Virus record (IMG/VR): IMGVR_UViG_3300005577_000020
Span: 1 to 37,984 of that record
Direction: 5' to 3' (one strand)
From: a virus
DNA: 37,984 nucleotides
Shown here: in pieces, positions 2,133 through 37,984 of the stretch
Layout: every line of letters begins with the position of its first letter
Position numbering within the stretch: position 1 is the first letter of the stretch
The notes under the pieces: generated by a model
Databases searched by the model: none
What the model saw: the letters and a program-made list of their open reading frames with translations, nothing else
Told to the model about the DNA's origin: nothing
Made by a program: the position numbers and the translations under genes

Positions 2133-2358
2133 TCTTCAGACGCCGCCCGGCGTCACACCCGCCAAGCTCTACCTCGAGCTCGCCCGACGACTCGCCGACG
2201 TCGCCGCCGCAGATGCACGCCACGCCGAGGAGCTGCTCGCCGACGCGCTGGTGCACGCAGAGCAGGCCAGAGAGCGACTCCACGTCGCCGCCGACCACCT
2301 CGAGGCCGCGTGCCGGGCAGTGGTGGCGGCAGAAACAGCAGGCACCGAATGTCCTTGA
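2122..2358 (+). CDS. Hypothetical Ala-rich helical protein
   Basis: A 78-residue protein that starts at GTG 2122 inside the end of the nuclease gene (11-base overlap) and ends 10 bases into VapE. The sequence is nearly all helix-forming, with repeated Ala, Arg and Glu and a heptad-like spacing between residues 15 and 65. This suggests a coiled coil or a small helical adaptor. No family is recognised. Its place between VRR-NUC and VapE suggests a replication accessory, which is inference from position only. Confidence 0.7.
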   Translation: MVADLQTPPGVTPAKLYLELARRLADVAAADARHAEELLADALVHAEQARERLHVAADHLEAACRAVVAAETAGTECP

Positions 2359-3884
2359 CCCACGACATCGCCGACGCCCGCCGGCGCCTGCACGCGCTCC
2401 GCGGCGGAGGACCGCCCACCGCGCCAGGAGAGTGGCAGTCGCGGGCGGTCCGGGCGCGAGACGGCGTCTCGTTCAAAGGCTGCCTGGCGAATGCGGTGCT
2501 CGTCCTGGAGCACGACATCGCCCTCGTCGGACGTATCCGCTACGACGCGTTCCGCGACCGCATCGTGGCGCACAACCTCCCATGGTCGCGCGACGATCAC
2601 GAATGGACGGACGAGGACACGGGCGAGCTCCGCATCTGGTTCCACCGGTACGAGAACCGCTACGGCATGGACGTCGGTCGGAGCGATGTCGATACCGCCG
2701 TGGCGTGCGTCGCGCACCACAACGAATTCCACCCGCTCCGCGACTGGCTCAGCGGTCTGGCGTGGGACGGCGTTGCCCGGCTCGATCGACTCTGGATCGA
2801 CTACTTCGGCGCCGCCGACACGCCGTACGCCCGCGGTGTAGCTGCTCGGTGGGCCATCAGCGCGGTGGCGCGAGCGTTCGAGCCAGGGTGCCAGGTCGAC
2901 TACGCCCCCGTGCTCGAGGGGGCGCAGGGGCTCGGCAAGTCGACAGGGCTTGAGGCCCTCGTCGGAAAGGAGTGGTTTTTCAACAGCGGCATCGATCTGA
3001 CGAACCTCAAGAGCGCGTACGAAACCATCCAAGGCAAGTGGGTCGTGGAGCTCGGCGAGCTCGACGCGCTCAGCAAAGCCGACATCACCCGCGTGAAAGC
3101 GTTTCTCACGAGCGCCCAGGACCACTTCCGCGCTGCGTACGCGCGTCACGCGGTCACCCACCCTCGCCAGGTGGTCTTCGTGGGGAGCACGAACGAGGAC
3201 CGCTACCTCAAAGACGCCACCGGCAACCGCCGGTTCTGGCCGGTGGCCTGCGGGACCATCGACCGAGACGCCATCCGCCGCGACCGGGAACAGCTCTGGG
3301 CCGAGGCTGTCGTCCGCTACCACGCCGGCGAGGCGTGGCGCCCGGACACCGCGCTGTCCAGGCTCGCCATGGAGGAGCAGGAGCACCGATATCAAGACGA
3401 TGCCTGGGAGGAGCCGGTCGCGACGTGGTTGGGTCCACGTGACGGGGTGTCCACATATGAGGTGCTCGTCGGCGCCCTCGCTGTCGAAAAGGGACGCATC
3501 ACGCGGGGCGACGAGATGCGGTGCGCATCTGTCCTACGCCGGATCGGCCTAACGGACATTCGACGGGAGCAAGAACGAGGGGTTCGTGCCCGACGCTATT
3601 ATCGAGGTGAGCCATATAGGCCAGATGGCCGGGCACCGATTCAATCGTCGAATCAAACACCTGTACCTAGTGGCCAACCTGACCAACCTTCTAACAGAGA
3701 ACAGAGTAATGGATCCGTGAATCCTATGGCCTATGGGGAGTACGGGGGCACGGGTGTCCACCATGGCCAGATGGCCACCTTGGCCAGTCAGGCAGCCGAC
3801 GACCCGACCGATGGGTTTGGCGAGTGGTTGTCTGACATGGGTGTCGGTACACCGTCATCCGAGGAGCCAGACAATGACGACTGA
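2349..3884 (+). CDS. VapE-type replication ATPase (virulence-associated E family)
   Basis: This 511-residue protein matches the virulence-associated E (PF05272) ATPase pattern, an SF3-like helicase that serves replication in many phages and phage satellites. Residues 1-130 form an N-terminal region with LSGLAWDG near 134. Walker A is GAQGLGKST at 191-199, Walker B-like WVVELGELD at 231-239, the sensor is VGSTNE around 278-283 and the Arg finger is GNRRFWPV at 292-299. ATG at 2349 is chosen because it follows the typical overlap with the upstream gene. The last 95 residues (from about 3590) are polar, rich in Gln/Asn/Ser, and coded by visibly less GC-rich DNA that contains short repeats, possibly a replication origin inside the gene. 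Confidence 0.93.
   Translation: MSLTHDIADARRRLHALRGGGPPTAPGEWQSRAVRARDGVSFKGCLANAVLVLEHDIALVGRIRYDAFRDRIVAHNLPWSRDDHEWTDEDTGELRIWFHRYENRYGMDVGRSDVDTAVACVAHHNEFHPLRDWLSGLAWDGVARLDRLWIDYFGAADTPYARGVAARWAISAVARAFEPGCQVDYAPVLEGAQGLGKSTGLEALVGKEWFFNSGIDLTNLKSAYETIQGKWVVELGELDALSKADITRVKAFLTSAQDHFRAAYARHAVTHPRQVVFVGSTNEDRYLKDATGNRRFWPVACGTIDRDAIRRDREQLWAEAVVRYHAGEAWRPDTALSRLAMEEQEHRYQDDAWEEPVATWLGPRDGVSTYEVLVGALAVEKGRITRGDEMRCASVLRRIGLTDIRREQERGVRARRYYRGEPYRPDGRAPIQSSNQTPVPSGQPDQPSNREQSNGSVNPMAYGEYGGTGVHHGQMATLASQAADDPTDGFGEWLSDMGVGTPSSEEPDNDD
3619..3787. repeat. Iteron-like GGCCA repeats in the 3' end of vapE (candidate origin)
   Basis: The 12-base inverted repeat GGCCAGATGGCC (GGCCA-GA-TGGCC) occurs exactly at 3619-3630 and 3765-3776. 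Further TGGCCA motifs lie at 3671-3676, 3772-3777 and around 3781-3786. The intervening DNA is lower in G+C than the rest of the genome. Repeats inside a replication-initiator gene are known from lambda-type phages, where the origin lies inside gene O. Calling this the origin here is inference. Confidence 0.45.
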
Positions 3885-3917
3885 CCGTGTTACAGAACGG
3901 CGTATGAGGCCGGCCTG

Positions 3918-4292
3918 ATGGCCAAGCCCGAGGCGCGCGAGGCGGTGCTCGGTTTCCTGCGGCGTGGGCTGCATCGCACCGACTCTGCGCGCAGCGCAGG
4001 CATCAATTTCTCCACTTTTCGCGAGTGGATGAAGGACCCCAAGTTTTCCGCTGCTGTAAAAAAGGCCGAAGCCGACAGCCGGTCGGTGCTCGTCGAACGG
4101 ATCCAGGCCGCCGCCGAGGACCCGAAGCACTGGACCGCGGCGGCCTGGCTCCTCGAGCGCCGGTCGCCGAGACGATGGGGCCGAAAAGACCGGGTGGACG
4201 TGAAGCAGCTCGCGCCAGAGCACCTCACCGACGAGCAGCTGGCCGCCGAGCTAGAAAAGGCGCTCGCTGCGCTCCGGAAGGGGGCAGCGTGA
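3918..4292 (+). CDS. Putative terminase small subunit (HTH protein)
   Basis: A 124-residue protein. Residues 1-45 fold like a helix-turn-helix (LGFLRRGLHRTDSARSAG, then FSTFREWMKDP). A helical region around 46-95 has the phrase AWLLERRSPRRWG, often seen in small terminase or HTH phage proteins. The C-terminus is acidic then basic, with leucine repeats. As the first gene of the late block, a few genes ahead of TerL, the expected role is recognition of packaging sites on phage DNA and recruitment of TerL. Synteny and HTH character support this. Another DNA-binding regulator remains possible. No strong SD is seen before the ATG. Confidence 0.6.
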   Translation: MAKPEAREAVLGFLRRGLHRTDSARSAGINFSTFREWMKDPKFSAAVKKAEADSRSVLVERIQAAAEDPKHWTAAAWLLERRSPRRWGRKDRVDVKQLAPEHLTDEQLAAELEKALAALRKGAA

Positions 4293-4651
4293 GGCGCGGA
4301 GTGGTCGCGGCGATGCTGGGCAAGCCGTTGACGACAGACCGGCCGGCGCCCTCGCTGGCCCGGCGCCGCGTCACCGAACGCATTTTCGTCGAGCAGCGGG
4401 CGGACAAGCGGTGGGCGGCGCTCTCCGACGAGGAGCTCCGCGCGAGTATCAACAGGTTCCTCGACGAAGAGGGATTCGCGATGCAGGTTGACCCGGAGTC
4501 GCTGCCCGCGACGCCGGCGGGTCGCCTCGAGCTCGTGAACGACTTGTTGCACCCGGTCGACGAGAACGGCCAGCCGATCGATCCGCTCATCAGCGCGGAG
4601 GACGCACGCAGGCTACTCGACGCGTGCGACGGCGGGGACGAGATCGAATGA
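4289..4651 (+). CDS. Hypothetical protein in packaging cluster
   Basis: A 120-residue, mostly helical, charged protein. GTG at 4289 overlaps the upstream stop by 4 bases. ATG at 4313 is an alternative start. The middle, LSDEELRASINRFLDEEG, resembles a short helical hairpin, and the C-terminus is acidic. No known family is recognised. It lies between putative TerS and a small Cys protein in a chain of overlapping genes, so it is likely co-expressed with the packaging genes. Confidence 0.7.
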   Translation: MRRGVVAAMLGKPLTTDRPAPSLARRRVTERIFVEQRADKRWAALSDEELRASINRFLDEEGFAMQVDPESLPATPAGRLELVNDLLHPVDENGQPIDPLISAEDARRLLDACDGGDEIE

Positions 4652-4923
4652 TCATCCACTGCGCGACTGGCTGCGATGTCTGCCGCCGCAAGCCGATGCC
4701 AGAGGCGATCCGCGCAGCTGCGGTGAAGCTCGACGCCGACGCGCTCGAGGCTCTCTGGCGTGCGATCGGCGACACAGATCGCAGCGTCGCCGAGGGAGCA
4801 TTCGCGCTTGCTCGCATCGTGCGTCACGCGACGCAGCAACCGATCACGGGTTCAGAAGACGACATCGACCGGGCGTACGAAGAGGGGACGGCGCGGTATG
4901 AGACGCGCCGCATCAAGCGATGA
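4648..4923 (+). CDS. Hypothetical small protein with N-terminal Cys cluster
   Basis: A 91-residue protein starting MIIHCATGCDVCRRKP: Cys residues at 5, 9 and 12 within the first 15 residues, then a helical domain. ATG at 4648 overlaps the previous stop (ATGA) and is the start consistent with the operon's overlap pattern. The end overlaps the GNAT-like gene by 4 bases. The Cys cluster could bind a metal ion, but there is no clear second half of a zinc site. Function unknown. Confidence 0.7.
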   Translation: MIIHCATGCDVCRRKPMPEAIRAAAVKLDADALEALWRAIGDTDRSVAEGAFALARIVRHATQQPITGSEDDIDRAYEEGTARYETRRIKR

Positions 4924-34265: not shown

Positions 34266-34547
34266 GTGAGACCGCTATGTGTCGCAGTGCTCGCCGCGCT
34301 CGCCGGGTGTCCCGATCCGCCGCCATACGCGCAGTTTCGCGGCCCCGATGGGCGCTACGGATGGATCGTCATCGACTGCCGACATCACGGCGGATGCCTG
34401 GAGAAGGCTGATCGCTACTGTCCAGGGGGCTACCGTGTCGCCGATGACGAAGGCGGCGACGTCTCAGCGTCGCACGCGCCGCTCAACTCGCACACCATGA
34501 TGGTGAAGTGCAAAGAGGGGCGCCGGCGAAACCCGGAAGAGCCCTAG
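34266..34547 (+). CDS. Small lipoprotein of the immunity region
   Basis: A 93-residue protein with a short N-terminal region and a clear lipobox (LAALAGC, Cys14), likely exported and lipidated. The mature part has WIVIDCRHHGGCLEKADRYCPGGY with paired Cys. GTG 34266 is preferred, with GTG 34251 possible. It lies on the plus strand between the leftward operon and the repressor gene, which places it beside the operators but outside both early operons. A lysogen-expressed surface or superinfection-exclusion role is inference; known phage lipoproteins such as T5 Llp act this way. Confidence 0.65.
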   Translation: MRPLCVAVLAALAGCPDPPPYAQFRGPDGRYGWIVIDCRHHGGCLEKADRYCPGGYRVADDEGGDVSASHAPLNSHTMMVKCKEGRRRNPEEP

Positions 34548-35158
34548 CCGGCCTTGCGGCGCGCGAGCATGCCAGAGCGCTTGCTCTTCGGCTTCGCACG
34601 CGGCGCCTCGCGCGGCGTCGCCCGTGGAGTCGGCGGGCTGTCTTGGCGGGCGAGCTCCACGATCCGCTTGCGCCGGTCAGCGTCGCTCAAAAGCAGGCGC
34701 TGCTGACTTGTCGTGAGCTGCGTGGCGCGGATCGTCTCGCCCTCGGCGCGGAACATCTCGAACCACCAGCCGGCCGGCTTGTCCTTCAACGCGGGGTCGC
34801 CCCACGCGAGGACCGGCTCGAGCTGCGCTTCAGGCATTCCGAGCAGGCGAGCAGCCAGCGTCGCTCGAGCTCGCTCGGGTAGCGGATCGGTGGCTTCGGA
34901 TTCACCGCTCGCGACGCCCATCTGCGCGAAGAGCTGATCGACACCGATGCCGCGAGCGACCATCGCGATCTTGGTCGCCGTGGGGTAGCTGATCCCTGTC
35001 TTCCCCGCGAGGAACTTGGAGACCGTCTGCTGTCCCACGCCGAGGCGTGCGCCAACGACTGTTTGCACAAGGTCTTCGCGCTGCGCGTACTCGCGGATGA
35101 CCGCCCGAAGAGCTTCGTTCTGCTCGTCGGTGAAATTCTGCGGCTTGCCTCTCGGCAC
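34544..35158 (-). CDS. Phage repressor (XRE-family HTH)
   Basis: A 204-residue protein. The XRE helix-turn-helix is at about residues 25-60 (LGVGQQTVSKFLAGKTGISY, then PTATKIAMVARGIGV), followed by linker and a helical C-terminal part with no obvious LexA-type Ser-Lys catalytic pair, so RecA-stimulated cleavage is not indicated. The start is uncertain: GTG 35158 is used because upstream starts (GTG 35185, ATG 35254) would place both operators inside the coding region. Its 3' end overlaps the convergent lipoprotein gene by 4 bases. It is the likely keeper of lysogeny. Confidence 0.8.
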   Translation of the reverse strand: MPRGKPQNFTDEQNEALRAVIREYAQREDLVQTVVGARLGVGQQTVSKFLAGKTGISYPTATKIAMVARGIGVDQLFAQMGVASGESEATDPLPERARATLAARLLGMPEAQLEPVLAWGDPALKDKPAGWWFEMFRAEGETIRATQLTTSQQRLLLSDADRRKRIVELARQDSPPTPRATPREAPRAKPKSKRSGMLARRKAG

Positions 35159-35183
35159 AAATGAACTTGTACCGCGTACTTCC

Positions 35184-35197
35184 ACGCGGGTAGGCGT
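35184..35197. promoter_or_regulatory. Operator OR2 (imperfect)
   Basis: ACGCGGGTAGGCGT: arms ACGCG/GGCGT with a 4-base centre, a weaker copy of the operator family. It lies between the repressor and cro starts. An adjoining inverted repeat (CCGCGT at 35172-35177, ACGCGG at 35184-35189) is also present. Confidence 0.5.
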
Positions 35198-35217
35198 ATT
35201 CGCAGGCGGACACCACC

Positions 35218-35246
35218 TTGACGACTCAATAGTACGCGCGTATGCG
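35218..35246 (+). promoter_or_regulatory. Rightward early promoter (PR-like), probably leaderless
   Basis: TTGACG at 35218-35223 and TATGCG at 35241-35246, 17 bases apart, with the cro ATG at 35253 where transcription should begin. No SD lies before the ATG. The -10 sits inside operator OR1. The -35 is close to consensus and the -10 is weak, so the call is moderate. Confidence 0.45.
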
Positions 35247-35249
35247 TAA
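35232..35249. promoter_or_regulatory. Operator OR1
   Basis: GTACGCG-CGTA-TGCGTAA: the right arm and centre are identical to OL1, and the left arm matches in 5 of 7 positions. It covers the proposed -10 of the rightward early promoter. Confidence 0.65.
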
Positions 35250-35252
35250 GTC

Positions 35253-35516
35253 ATGGCACGTTCACGCCGAAAGACTCCGCGCGCGGTTCCGATGACCGAT
35301 GGCCTGCGCCGCCTCCGCGAGATCGCGGAGACGATTTCCCAGGCGGAAATCGCACGACGCACGGAGGTGTCGCAGCAGACGGTCTCTTGCTACTTGCGCC
35401 GCGTTGCGCGCCCTGACGAGATCGTACGCGAGCGCATGGAGCACGAATTCGGCATCCCGCGGACATCGTGGCGCACTCCCGAGGAGGAGCGACACGCGTC
35501 CGGGCGGGCGGCGTGA
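35253..35516 (+). CDS. Cro-like HTH regulator
   Basis: An 87-residue basic protein with an HTH (ISQAEIARRTEVSQQTVSCYL, residues about 28-48). ATG 35253 directly follows operator OR1. It is divergent from the repressor gene and is the first gene of the rightward operon, the usual place of a Cro protein that shuts off the repressor and sets the lytic path. Identity is inferred from position and HTH, not from sequence homology to lambda Cro. Confidence 0.75.
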   Translation: MARSRRKTPRAVPMTDGLRRLREIAETISQAEIARRTEVSQQTVSCYLRRVARPDEIVRERMEHEFGIPRTSWRTPEEERHASGRAA

Positions 35517-35613: not shown

Positions 35614-35996
35614 CTCCGCCGCCGCGCGTTTTCACGGCGCAGGACATCGCGGCGCTCGTGCAGGTGAGCGAGTCGCACGCGTACGCGATCATGCGGCAGA
35701 TGCCGCACCGCAAGGTGGGGACGTGTATCCGGGTTCTCGAGGCTGATTTCTGGGCGTGGTGGGAGGCGGAGAAGACATGCGGATCTACAAGCGCGGAAAG
35801 TACTGGTGGTGCGCGTGGACTGAAGGCGGGCTCACTCTCCGGCGTTCTACCCGGTGCACCACGCGCCGGGCGGCGGAGATCGTCAGCGCGCGCTGGGAGC
35901 GCGAGCGAGCCGATCCGGCCTATCACGCCGCGAACACCGCGACGCTCGGCGCCGAGGCCCGCACCTTCCTCGACGAATGCAAAGCGGACGGCCTGA
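35610..35996 (+). CDS. Excisionase-like HTH protein overlapping integrase
   Basis: A 128-residue reading frame. Residues 1-55 (VFTAQDIAALVQVSESHAYAIM, RKVGTCIRVLEADFWAWWE) have the winged-HTH look of AlpA/HTH_17-type excisionases, which bend attachment-site DNA for Int. The remaining 73 residues are low-complexity Ser/Arg/Pro and run in another frame over the first 220 bases of integrase, so they may be a passenger tail. The functional part probably ends near residue 60. GTG 35610 overlaps the 28-residue ORF. Confidence 0.7.
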   Translation: MTPPPRVFTAQDIAALVQVSESHAYAIMRQMPHRKVGTCIRVLEADFWAWWEAEKTCGSTSAESTGGARGLKAGSLSGVLPGAPRAGRRRSSARAGSASEPIRPITPRTPRRSAPRPAPSSTNAKRTA

Positions 35997-37000
35997 GGCC
36001 GGGGACGCTCAACATGTACGACTGCAAGGTGGCCCACGTCTGTCGCTTGCTGGGCGCCAATACGCGCACTGCGGCCATCACCCCGCCGATGGTGATCGCG
36101 TACATCGCGCAGCGGCGCGTCGAGGGCGCGAGCGATTCCACCATCTATAAGGAGTGGGTTGCGCTCCGCGGCATCCTCAACAGCGCACGCCACCGCGGTC
36201 GCTACGCGCGCGATCCGGGCGCTCTGAAGCCGCCGCGGTTCTCGCCGTCGTACGAGCCGCGCCAGCGCTTCCTGTCGTGGGCCGAGCTCGGGCTCCTCTG
36301 TCTCTCCGGCGTGCTGCCCTTGCACCGTGCGCAGGCGGTCGCGTTCATCGTCGCCACTGGCGCCAGGCGCGCCGAGTTCCGCGCGGCGCAGGCGCACGAC
36401 GTCACCGATCGGACCGTCCACCTGCACGGGACGAAGACCGACTCGAGCAACCGCGTCATTCCGGTGCCGGCCACCTACCAGGCGCTCCTCGCGTTCGCCG
36501 GCCCGCCGCCGTTCGATCCGTGGACGAATGCGCGGCGCGATCTCGAGGAAGCATGCGCACGCGCCGGCGTCGAGCCGGTCACGTTCAACGATTTGCGCCG
36601 CACCTTCGCATCGCTCTTGGTGCAAGAGGGCGTGGCGCCTCACCTCGTGGGGAAACTGATGGGACACACGACGAGCGCGATGGTCGAAAGGGTCTATGGG
36701 CGGCAGTCGACGGAGGCGTTGGCGCGTCTGATCGATGGCCCATTGGCGTACCAGACGCCAGCACTCCAGGACGCACCGGACGGACCCAGTGAAGACGATT
36801 CACCGGTAAATCGTGGGCCGACCGGGACTCGAACCCGGGACCTACGGATTAAAAGGCCGGCGTCACCCGCTGCAATGCCCGCAGAAACCGGCGATATGGG
36901 CGCCGGCGTACCACCAGCGTACCAGGCGCCTGCACCCTGGCCATGGGGTCCGGCGCGCAAATTCCTGGTGGAGAGCGGGATGGTTCGGAGGGTGGCTTGA
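35777..37000 (+). CDS. int: Tyrosine integrase with attP inside its 3' end
   Basis: A 407-residue tyrosine recombinase. Residues 1-45 form an arm-binding beta domain (MRIYKRGKYWWCAW), 55-145 the core-binding SAM-like domain, and 165-320 the catalytic domain: R197 (ATGARRAE), K220 (GTKTDSS), then FNDLRRT with R274 and N271 where most members have His, H297 (MGHTT) and Y307. ATG 35777 has GGAGGCGGAG upstream. DNA for residues about 346-360 is the tRNA-Lys half, so the spurious-looking GPTGTRTRDLRIKR is encoded by attP. After integration, residues beyond about 360 would come from host DNA. Confidence 0.93.
   Translation: MRIYKRGKYWWCAWTEGGLTLRRSTRCTTRRAAEIVSARWERERADPAYHAANTATLGAEARTFLDECKADGLRPGTLNMYDCKVAHVCRLLGANTRTAAITPPMVIAYIAQRRVEGASDSTIYKEWVALRGILNSARHRGRYARDPGALKPPRFSPSYEPRQRFLSWAELGLLCLSGVLPLHRAQAVAFIVATGARRAEFRAAQAHDVTDRTVHLHGTKTDSSNRVIPVPATYQALLAFAGPPPFDPWTNARRDLEEACARAGVEPVTFNDLRRTFASLLVQEGVAPHLVGKLMGHTTSAMVERVYGRQSTEALARLIDGPLAYQTPALQDAPDGPSEDDSPVNRGPTGTRTRDLRIKRPASPAAMPAETGDMGAGVPPAYQAPAPWPWGPARKFLVESGMVRRVA
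36814..36855 (-). other. attP: attP core: 3' half of tRNA-Lys (UUU)
   Basis: On the minus strand this stretch reads as the anticodon loop CTTTTAA (anticodon UUU), the 3' anticodon strand TCCGT, variable loop, the complete T-arm (CCGGG/TTCGAGT/CCCGG), the 3' acceptor strand and the discriminator A. The 5' anticodon strand no longer pairs, so the identity starts at the loop. It is 42 bases of a tRNA, not a working tRNA. Site-specific integration into a host tRNA-Lys gene, restoring its 3' end, is the established mechanism for this arrangement. Confidence 0.88.
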
Positions 37001-37308
37001 GCGCCCGTGTCGACGCGCGCCCGCTCGGCGTGGACGCGCCCACGGCGTATCGGACGTACCTACGGTTCCGCGCACGCGACAACGCCGAGCGGCGGATCAC
37101 CATTGCCGCGACGGCGCATTTCTTCGATCGCCGCCAGCGCGGTCAGCGGTGCTCGTCATGCGGTGGCACGTCGACGCGTTTGCTCGCGCTTGCGTGCGCT
37201 GACCCGCTGGCGGCCGACGAGAACCCCGACACCACGCGCCTCTGGACGGGCCTCTGTCGTGGATGCGTCGAGGCGGTCGTCGACGCTGCTGAGGAGATGT
37301 GGCCGTGA
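36997..37308 (+). CDS. Zinc-ribbon protein after integrase
   Basis: A 103-residue protein with CSSCGGTS (about 54-60) and CRGC (about 88-91) pairs forming a zinc ribbon, and an N-terminal helical part. TTG 36997 is preferred: GGAGGG lies 4-5 bases upstream and the TTGA overlaps the integrase stop. GTG 37009 is the alternative. It overlaps the DnaA-like gene by 4 bases. It is the first gene after attP, so it would be cut off from the early promoter in the prophage. Confidence 0.75.
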   Translation: MSARVDARPLGVDAPTAYRTYLRFRARDNAERRITIAATAHFFDRRQRGQRCSSCGGTSTRLLALACADPLAADENPDTTRLWTGLCRGCVEAVVDAAEEMWP

Positions 37309-37583
37309 CCGCCGCCGCATCGTGGTTCCCCGGCACCATTCCGCCGGCGCCCATCCGCGCGCAGCTCGACGACATCGCCGCCGACGTCTGCGCCTCGCAC
37401 CGCGTGACGCTGGCCGAGCTGTTCGGCCGCGATCGCCACGCGGACATCGTCGCCGCCCGCAGGGAGTTCGCGGTCAGGGGGCGCGCCACGGGCGCCAGCT
37501 ACCCGGTGCTGGGGCGGTACATGGGGCGGGACCATTCTACGGTCCAGGCGCTGGTGAAGGGGCTCGGGTGGCACCGTGCGTGA
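37305..37583 (+). CDS. Stand-alone DnaA domain IV-like DNA-binding protein
   Basis: A 92-residue protein. Residues 25-90 match DnaA domain IV: helices ADIVAARREF, a middle SYPVLGRYM, and the DnaA-box-reading signature GRDHSTVQALVKGL (compare GRDHTTVLHA in DnaA). There is no ATPase domain. GAGGAG stands 8 bases before GTG 37305. Single DnaA-IV domains occur in phages, where they may bind DnaA-box-like sites to start phage or block host replication. Just before HNH and the helicase, on the replication side of attP. Confidence 0.85.
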   Translation: MTAAASWFPGTIPPAPIRAQLDDIAADVCASHRVTLAELFGRDRHADIVAARREFAVRGRATGASYPVLGRYMGRDHSTVQALVKGLGWHRA

Positions 37584-37984
37584 GGCAGACGCCCGGCGGT
37601 TCTGGCGCAGGGTCCGCAAGGGATATAGCTGCTGGGAGTGGACCGGGGCGCGGAACCAAAAGGGGCGCCGCGGCTACGGTCGCATCACGATCGGGCGGAA
37701 GGCCGATGGGACTCGGCGGGCCTGGCTGGCGCATCGCGTAGCGTGGCAACTCGCATACGGTCCGATCCCGGACGGCCTTTTCGTCTGCCACCACTGCGAC
37801 AACCCGGCATGCGTGCGGCCGGACCACCTATTCCTAGGTGACCAGGCCGCCAACATGTCGGATTGCGCGCGAAAGGGTCGGGCGCGTGGCCCGTCGCTAC
37901 GCGGCACACGCAACCCGAACGCGTCGTATGGCGACGACGTGGTCGCACGCGTGCGGGCGCTCGCGGCGGCCGGCGTACCTCGCG
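37576..37984 (+). CDS. HNH endonuclease, N-terminal part (continues at 1)
   Basis: GTG 37576 overlaps the DnaA-like stop. The protein has the HNH_3 pattern: WEWTGARNQKGRRGYGRI, AHRVAW, then CHHCDNPACVRPDHL with H72/H73, N76 and H84, and three Cys that can bind zinc. The frame is open at the window end and continues in the repeat copy at base 1 to a stop at 201-203 (163 residues in all). HNH enzymes near the packaging or replication genes can nick phage DNA or act as homing enzymes; here it sits in the replication operon. Confidence 0.93.
   Translation, partial: MREADARRFWRRVRKGYSCWEWTGARNQKGRRGYGRITIGRKADGTRRAWLAHRVAWQLAYGPIPDGLFVCHHCDNPACVRPDHLFLGDQAANMSDCARKGRARGPSLRGTRNPNASYGDDVVARVRALAAAGVPR
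37865..37984. repeat. Direct terminal repeat, right copy
   Basis: Identical to bases 1-120. It contains the HNH coding frame, whose continuation past the window end is found at 121-203. Removing one copy gives a 37,864-base circle. Confidence 0.97.

Follow-up and report, generated by a model that had tools for sequence, protein, structure and literature searches.

A stand-alone DnaA domain IV in the early region of a phage that probably infects soil myxobacteria

An open reading frame at 37305-37583 (+ strand) of an IMG/VR virus record, all 37,984 nucleotides of which we call the window, encodes a 92-amino-acid protein that we confirmed to be a real DnaA domain IV (Bac_DnaA_C). Judged by its sequence and predicted fold, it is a small, net-basic protein that would bind DNA sequence-specifically and that has no ATPase, oligomerisation or helicase-recruiting domain. 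Its short reading frame, DnaA domain IV as its only domain and its place in a phage early region make it a further member of the stand-alone DnaA-IV proteins, a recurrent kind of phage protein of which several are annotated in GenBank. The carrier is a temperate phage, probably with a Polyangiaceae myxobacterium of soil as its host. We favour, tentatively, a role as an accessory early factor of phage replication that binds DNA sequence-specifically and with a shifted specificity.

In a Pfam search, the protein matched Bac_DnaA_C (PF08299) with an E-value of 3.7e-9 and 36.9 bits, over the curated cut-off of 31.5, and residues 22-82 aligned with positions 2-64 of the 69-position profile. The next family, HTH_38, reached 22.0 bits, under its cut-off of 27, and no other HTH family in Pfam exceeded its own. 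This was the only Bac_DnaA_C match in the whole 37,984-base record. A hidden Markov model built from seven DnaA-IV sequences (three stand-alone and four canonical, with the window protein left out) scored 52.4 bits on the protein, against a best score of 10.0 in 5000 shuffles of it, whereas a model built from the four canonical DnaAs alone was much weaker (14.4 bits vs 11.4 for shuffles). The model of the full-length initiator, TIGR00362, failed (28.0 bits vs a cut-off of 343.9) and matched only at its positions 345-411 of 437; the AAA+ part is missing from the 92 residues. Thus the original prediction of a DnaA domain IV that lacks the AAA+ domain holds.

The predicted fold agrees with this assignment. 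The closest solved structure by sequence was E. coli DnaA domain IV, a weak match (E 0.022). An AlphaFold2 model made with 12 related sequences as input (the window protein and 11 viral loci) had a pLDDT of 81.6 and a pTM of 0.71. When the model was compared with known structures, the top six entries were all DnaA (Z 9.2-10.4, with 10.4 to 3pvp and 10.3 to 1j1v) and the next row stood at 4.8. Foldseek gave the same ranking, with a TM of 0.69, an rmsd of 1.0 over 67 columns and an E-value of 0.011, and no match at E<=0.001. The predicted fold clearly matches DnaA only.

The gene begins with GTG at 37305, with GAGGAG 8 nt 5' of this start and an alternative GTG upstream at 37299, and contains GRDHSTVQALVKGL, the stretch quoted in the original prediction. 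Its start shares GTGA with the stop of the preceding gene (36943-37308, +), whose 121-residue product looks zinc-ribbon-like by eye, with two CxxC pairs and no Pfam match over cut-off. Its own stop sits inside the start of an HNH endonuclease gene (HNH_3, zf-His_Me_endon; 37576-37984, +), which it overlaps by 8 bases and which is cut by the record end. The GC content is 0.93 at third and 0.58 at second codon positions, the former being typical of coding sequence in a record of 68% GC.

We then compared the residues that touch DNA. In the excerpted text of PMC5043019, the base contacts of E. coli DnaA are placed at positions 399, 423, 432-435 and 438-439, with 435, 438 and 439 singled out as variable. 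In our alignment the stretch encoded at 37430-37550 (+) runs from a basic loop, whose R44 corresponds to R399 of E. coli, through the helix-turn-helix GRDHSTV (R75 D76 H77 S78, corresponding to R432-T435). The window protein has R, P, R, D, H, S, Q and A at the eight positions, E. coli DnaA has R, P, R, D, H, T, L and H, and 22 myxobacterial DnaAs have mostly R, P, R/K, D, H, T, M and S. Five of the eight are thus identical to E. coli (R399, P423, R432, D433, H434), T435 is conservatively replaced by S, and two are changed, so that the window protein differs from E. coli at precisely the variable positions. The core of the DNA-reading head is therefore kept. Among the 22 myxobacterial DnaAs, Q438 occurs in two and A439 in two, never both in one protein. 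The nearest phage relative, MW202476, has S, Q and A in common with the window protein and has lost R399, R432 and H434.

Stand-alone relatives were found repeatedly. Three tblastn runs on a set of 50,697 phage records returned 4, 2 and 21 of them, together 24 different ones: 19 from pelagiphages, MW202476, MW202483 and three gut records without annotation. Among 72,556 plasmids the single match was a prophage-like plasmid of Devosia, and 20 of 87 candidate stretches in viral contigs encode relatives. In all 25 hits, which come from the window and the loci examined, the frame is at most 222 residues, too short for a full-length DnaA, and none of six representatives (the L025, L026, L027, L042, MW202476 and HTVC010P proteins) had a further Pfam domain over cut-off. 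No match was obtained when the single window protein was scanned against the viral contigs or when genomes were scanned with a four-sequence alignment. The excerpted text of PMC6811365 names 'DnaA' among the proteins of all HTVC010P-related genomes; in the literature that we searched, no study dealt with what a stand-alone DnaA-IV protein does in a phage.

In a tree of 70 columns with long branches, from which repeated identical domain sequences had been dropped beforehand, the window protein lay among the phage stand-alone proteins, apart from the 22 myxobacterial DnaAs, with MW202476 as its sister (97/83) in a clade supported at 94/90. The stand-alone proteins formed two separate lineages, the pelagiphages and the rest, and the window protein belonged to the rest. 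We considered a recent capture from the host and set it aside, as the tree sides with the phage proteins, although grouping the window protein with full-length DnaAs was not rejected by the AU test (p 0.215).

Compared with bacterial DnaA domain IV (PF08299; 1j1v, 3pvp, 8btg), the window protein has the same family, predicted fold, helix-turn-helix signature and most base contacts, but it lacks domains I-III, is one residue shorter between helices and has QA at 438-439 where they have L/I/M and H/Y/S. MW202476 (a siphovirus) and MW202483 (a podovirus with VapE) resemble it in carrying a stand-alone domain in the early region, and MW202476 is nearest to it both by identity (48-49%) and in the tree, yet MW202476 has lost several base contacts and the neighbour genes of both differ from those in the window. 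The DnaA-like proteins of HTVC010P-type pelagiphages, annotated as 'chromosomal replication initiation protein DnaA-like protein' or 'DNA replication initiation', are likewise DnaA-IV without AAA+ in small phages, but they form a separate branch (100/99) and have an N-terminal extension of about 85 residues, and these phages have no annotated polymerase or primase. The domain is also reused outside DnaA at the C-terminus of REP-associated tyrosine transposases, where, unlike in the window protein, it is fused to an HUH nuclease; according to the excerpted text of PMC6006769, the repeats that flank these transposases are unlike DnaA boxes.

The gene lies in what appears to be a rightward early operon, and the start/stop overlaps couple it to the genes on either side. 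At the head of the rightward early genes is a cro-like HTH gene (35253-35516, +), divergent to the gene of a repressor-like HTH protein (34544-35362, -) and followed by a tyrosine integrase (35756-37000, +). An attP core of 43 nt (36813-36855, -), which matches base for base the 3' half of tRNA-Lys(UUU) in Polyangiaceae/Myxococcales genomes, sits inside the 3' end of the integrase frame, upstream of the DnaA-IV gene, which thus lies between attP and the HNH gene, just as described at the outset. As the core comes without the 5' half of the tRNA and is read through by the integrase frame, what the record holds is attP flanked by phage DNA, and the DnaA-IV gene is therefore phage-borne. Integration would cut it off from the cro/integrase side and excision would rejoin them; going by gene order, it would be among the first genes made after excision. 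With the core inside its reading frame, the integrase would have its C-terminus altered by integration.

At the other end of the record, the first recognisable gene is a DEAD/ResIII helicase (330-1703, +), accompanied by a VapE-type helicase/primase (2310-3884, +) and a VRR_NUC-like gene, the latter seen in the window only and with a match below the VRR_NUC cut-off. Structural genes include a terminase (6017), a portal (7716) and a head protein. Both the helicase and the VapE gene point the same way as the DnaA-IV gene. Since a relative (L004) has a recombinase directly before a helicase and a further gene in a row, the left and right ends of the window probably join in the phage, with the piece between 37984 and 1 missing. 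The original prediction spoke of a replication operon. The link to replication is plausible, as relatives lie mostly beside replication genes; the operon is less direct, because the record breaks off within the HNH gene, with the helicase and VapE at its opposite end.

The neighbours of the relatives speak for a function in replication, although genes of this kind can lie beside any small early gene. PHROGs called six of ten neighbour proteins as replication genes: O-like/replication initiation in L024, L025 and L027, primosomal in L026 (a DUF1376 gene), primase in L042 and replication initiation in L089. The remaining four were two MW202476 neighbours with no clear replication call and two pelagiphage neighbours, one with a weak O-like match (E 1.1e-4) and one an Erf annealing protein. 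Primase-type genes with DUF5906 adjoin the stand-alone gene in L032 and L043, and MW202483 has VapE and MW202476 an annotated replicative helicase. The annotations of the HTVC010P-type pelagiphages L045, L047, L048 and L050 show neither a DNA polymerase nor a primase or helicase. L047, L048 and L050 are better annotated, and their few annotated genes of DNA metabolism include those for a nuclease, an annealing protein and the DnaA-like protein.

The host is probably a polyangial myxobacterium because of att-core matches and portal relatives. Forty-one bases of the att core were found exactly in four genomes, all Myxococcota (three Polyangiaceae and one Myxococcales), and relatives of the portal occur in prophages of 4 of 144 Polyangiales genomes, where the stretches fetched contained no DnaA-IV reading frame at E<=1e-4. 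The window protein itself matched 66 of 377 Myxococcota genomes, nearly always in DnaA domain IVs, the best of which were 38-40% identical and included that of the att-matching genome G018. Only three of the 68 places listed had frames shorter than 300 residues (103 in G057, 264 in G368 and 287, near a contig end, in G207). A 264-residue frame with a C-terminal Bac_DnaA_C at L091:7719-8510 lies in a myxobacterial genome and not in an obvious prophage.

How might such a protein work? In the reading that we favour, it would bind 9-mers related to the DnaA box in the phage's own replication region, with a specificity that the exchanges at E. coli positions 438-439 (to QA) would have shifted, and, once bound, would assist or regulate initiation by the phage VapE helicase/primase. 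It would thus be an accessory origin-binding or early regulatory factor and not an initiator on its own. This role is suggested by the domain identity, the kept contacts, the replication neighbours, the VapE and helicase genes in the same orientation, the tree and a weak cluster of degenerate boxes. Against it stand the absence of exact boxes, one-mismatch boxes at chance level and the lack of iterons near the gene; adjacency to replication genes is, moreover, weak evidence.

The original proposal that the protein binds DnaA boxes in the phage's own origin was not borne out by the box search. The window has no exact TTWTNCACA (0.2 expected) and six one-mismatch boxes against 6.8 expected, and we dropped DnaA boxes as a clear feature of it. 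The degenerate excess is weak: 33 sites within two mismatches of TTATCCACA were found in this incomplete record against about 23 expected, a count reached by 3-4% of shuffles and 8% of permuted motifs. A weak candidate target region at 3401-4700 (no strand assigned) has six box-like sites in 1.3 kb and adjoins the part of the record with the highest AT content (about 3541-3720), where VapE has its 3' end; it was picked after the fact and all six sites carry two mismatches, so that we take it as suggestive only. Iteron-like repeat clusters exceed shuffles in the window (for example, 18 vs 5.7 for 9-mers), and none of these clusters is near the DnaA-IV gene; one repeat search gave repeats at chance level only.

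The main rival, which we consider rather unlikely, is that the free domain acts as a decoy by occupying boxes in the host oriC and in DnaA-regulated promoters; as no orisome would form there, host initiation would stop and resources would pass to the phage. Competition with host DnaA, which the original prediction also raised, would be allowed by the contact residues. These residues are largely kept while the phage genome is without boxes, the Myxococcota matches (G018 included) are nearly all DnaA domain IVs, and phage proteins that hinder host DnaA are known, namely lambda P, which binds DnaA domain III, and YfdR, which binds DnaA (both from the excerpted text of PMC4776307). However, the Q and A at 438/439 are unlike the usual M and S of the 22 myxobacterial DnaAs, and the loss of R399, R432 and H434 from the sister MW202476 suggests that the lineage has not retained the binding of canonical boxes. 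Nor was a host oriC recognised: the 12-19 kb surrounding dnaA in the four genomes with an att match held no box cluster. Box avoidance, which we tried as evidence for a decoy, was rejected; the apparent depletion in pelagiphages against dinucleotide shuffles was not extreme among permuted motifs, and box counts in four pelagiphages with the gene were similar to those in two control pelagiphages without it. The counts set against shuffles covered 17 sequences (the window, ten of the 20 viral-contig loci and six named records, i.e. the four pelagiphages, MW202483 and the Devosia plasmid), and only L042 had more exact boxes than any of its shuffles.

It is distinctly unlikely, in our view, that the protein is instead a transcription regulator that binds operators in early phage promoters, as DnaA does as a transcription factor. 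What suggests such a role is a paired inverted box-like sequence, TTNTNCACATGTGNATAA with 0-2 mismatches, that lies 5' of the gene in all eight examined members of one related phage group (L034-L038, L041, L042, L046) and that in L042 and L037 falls within sigma70-type promoters (TTGACA, 17 nt, TATAAC). But the right half of the palindrome overlaps an extended -10 element and may be mere promoter sequence, and another such promoter keeps ACATGTG and not the left half of the box. Paired boxes were also absent from all seven examined members of a sister subgroup with a similar protein (L028, L029, L032, L039, L040, L043, L044) and from the window. Palindromic double boxes in early promoters, real in one group, were therefore rejected.

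In the podophage group, abutting inverted box-like pairs occur 5' of early genes at L036:3187, L042:5616, L037:2971, L046:29011 and other places, one of them perfect (TTATCCACATGTGTATAA). At L037:2145-2530, dense GTTTACGTAAAC-type palindromes and repeats lie 5' of an early operon and are perhaps an operator array or an origin. According to the excerpted text of PMC9437464, the phages analysed there show no asymmetry in where their DnaA sites lie.

A partnership with the adjacent HNH nuclease, to which the protein would supply a landing site as part of a mobile DNA-binding/nuclease cassette, is very improbable: the two genes overlap by 8 bases, and a GIY-YIG gene similarly overlaps the stand-alone gene of the Devosia plasmid, but the neighbouring nucleases are not of one family, and in most relatives examined no recognised nuclease adjoins the gene. 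It is scarcely credible that the gene is a relic without function, left over from a full-length host dnaA that was captured, to which the presence of the C-terminal domain alone and the unrejected grouping with full-length DnaAs would point, given that it has its own start and ribosome-binding site, overlaps both neighbours, has a GC3 of 0.93 and retains its contact residues, and that stand-alone genes recur in unrelated phages.

The relatives also suggest a wider proposal, which we regard as unlikely: that the stand-alone DnaA-IV family comprises phage regulators of host replication, in which the DNA-reading head of the initiator, without its motor, blocks or reprograms host DnaA-box sites, some alphaproteobacterial-type phages adding GcrA and GapR in the same region. 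Among phages of that type with DnaA-IV, GcrA-family genes occur at L025:8228-8560 and L026:6822-7340, and the Devosia plasmid, itself a stand-alone DnaA-IV carrier, encodes a GapR-annotated protein (L049:34923-36101). Together with DNA methylase genes, which some of these carriers have nearby, they look like a set of DNA-binding proteins of the host cell cycle.

The identification itself is ordinary domain annotation. If the domain acts alone, however, it would be a minimal natural reagent that separates DnaA-box recognition from orisome assembly, and would offer the phage a route to take over or shut down host initiation. Because HTVC010P-type pelagiphages carry a DnaA-like gene (19 records found), a function found here would reach far past this record.
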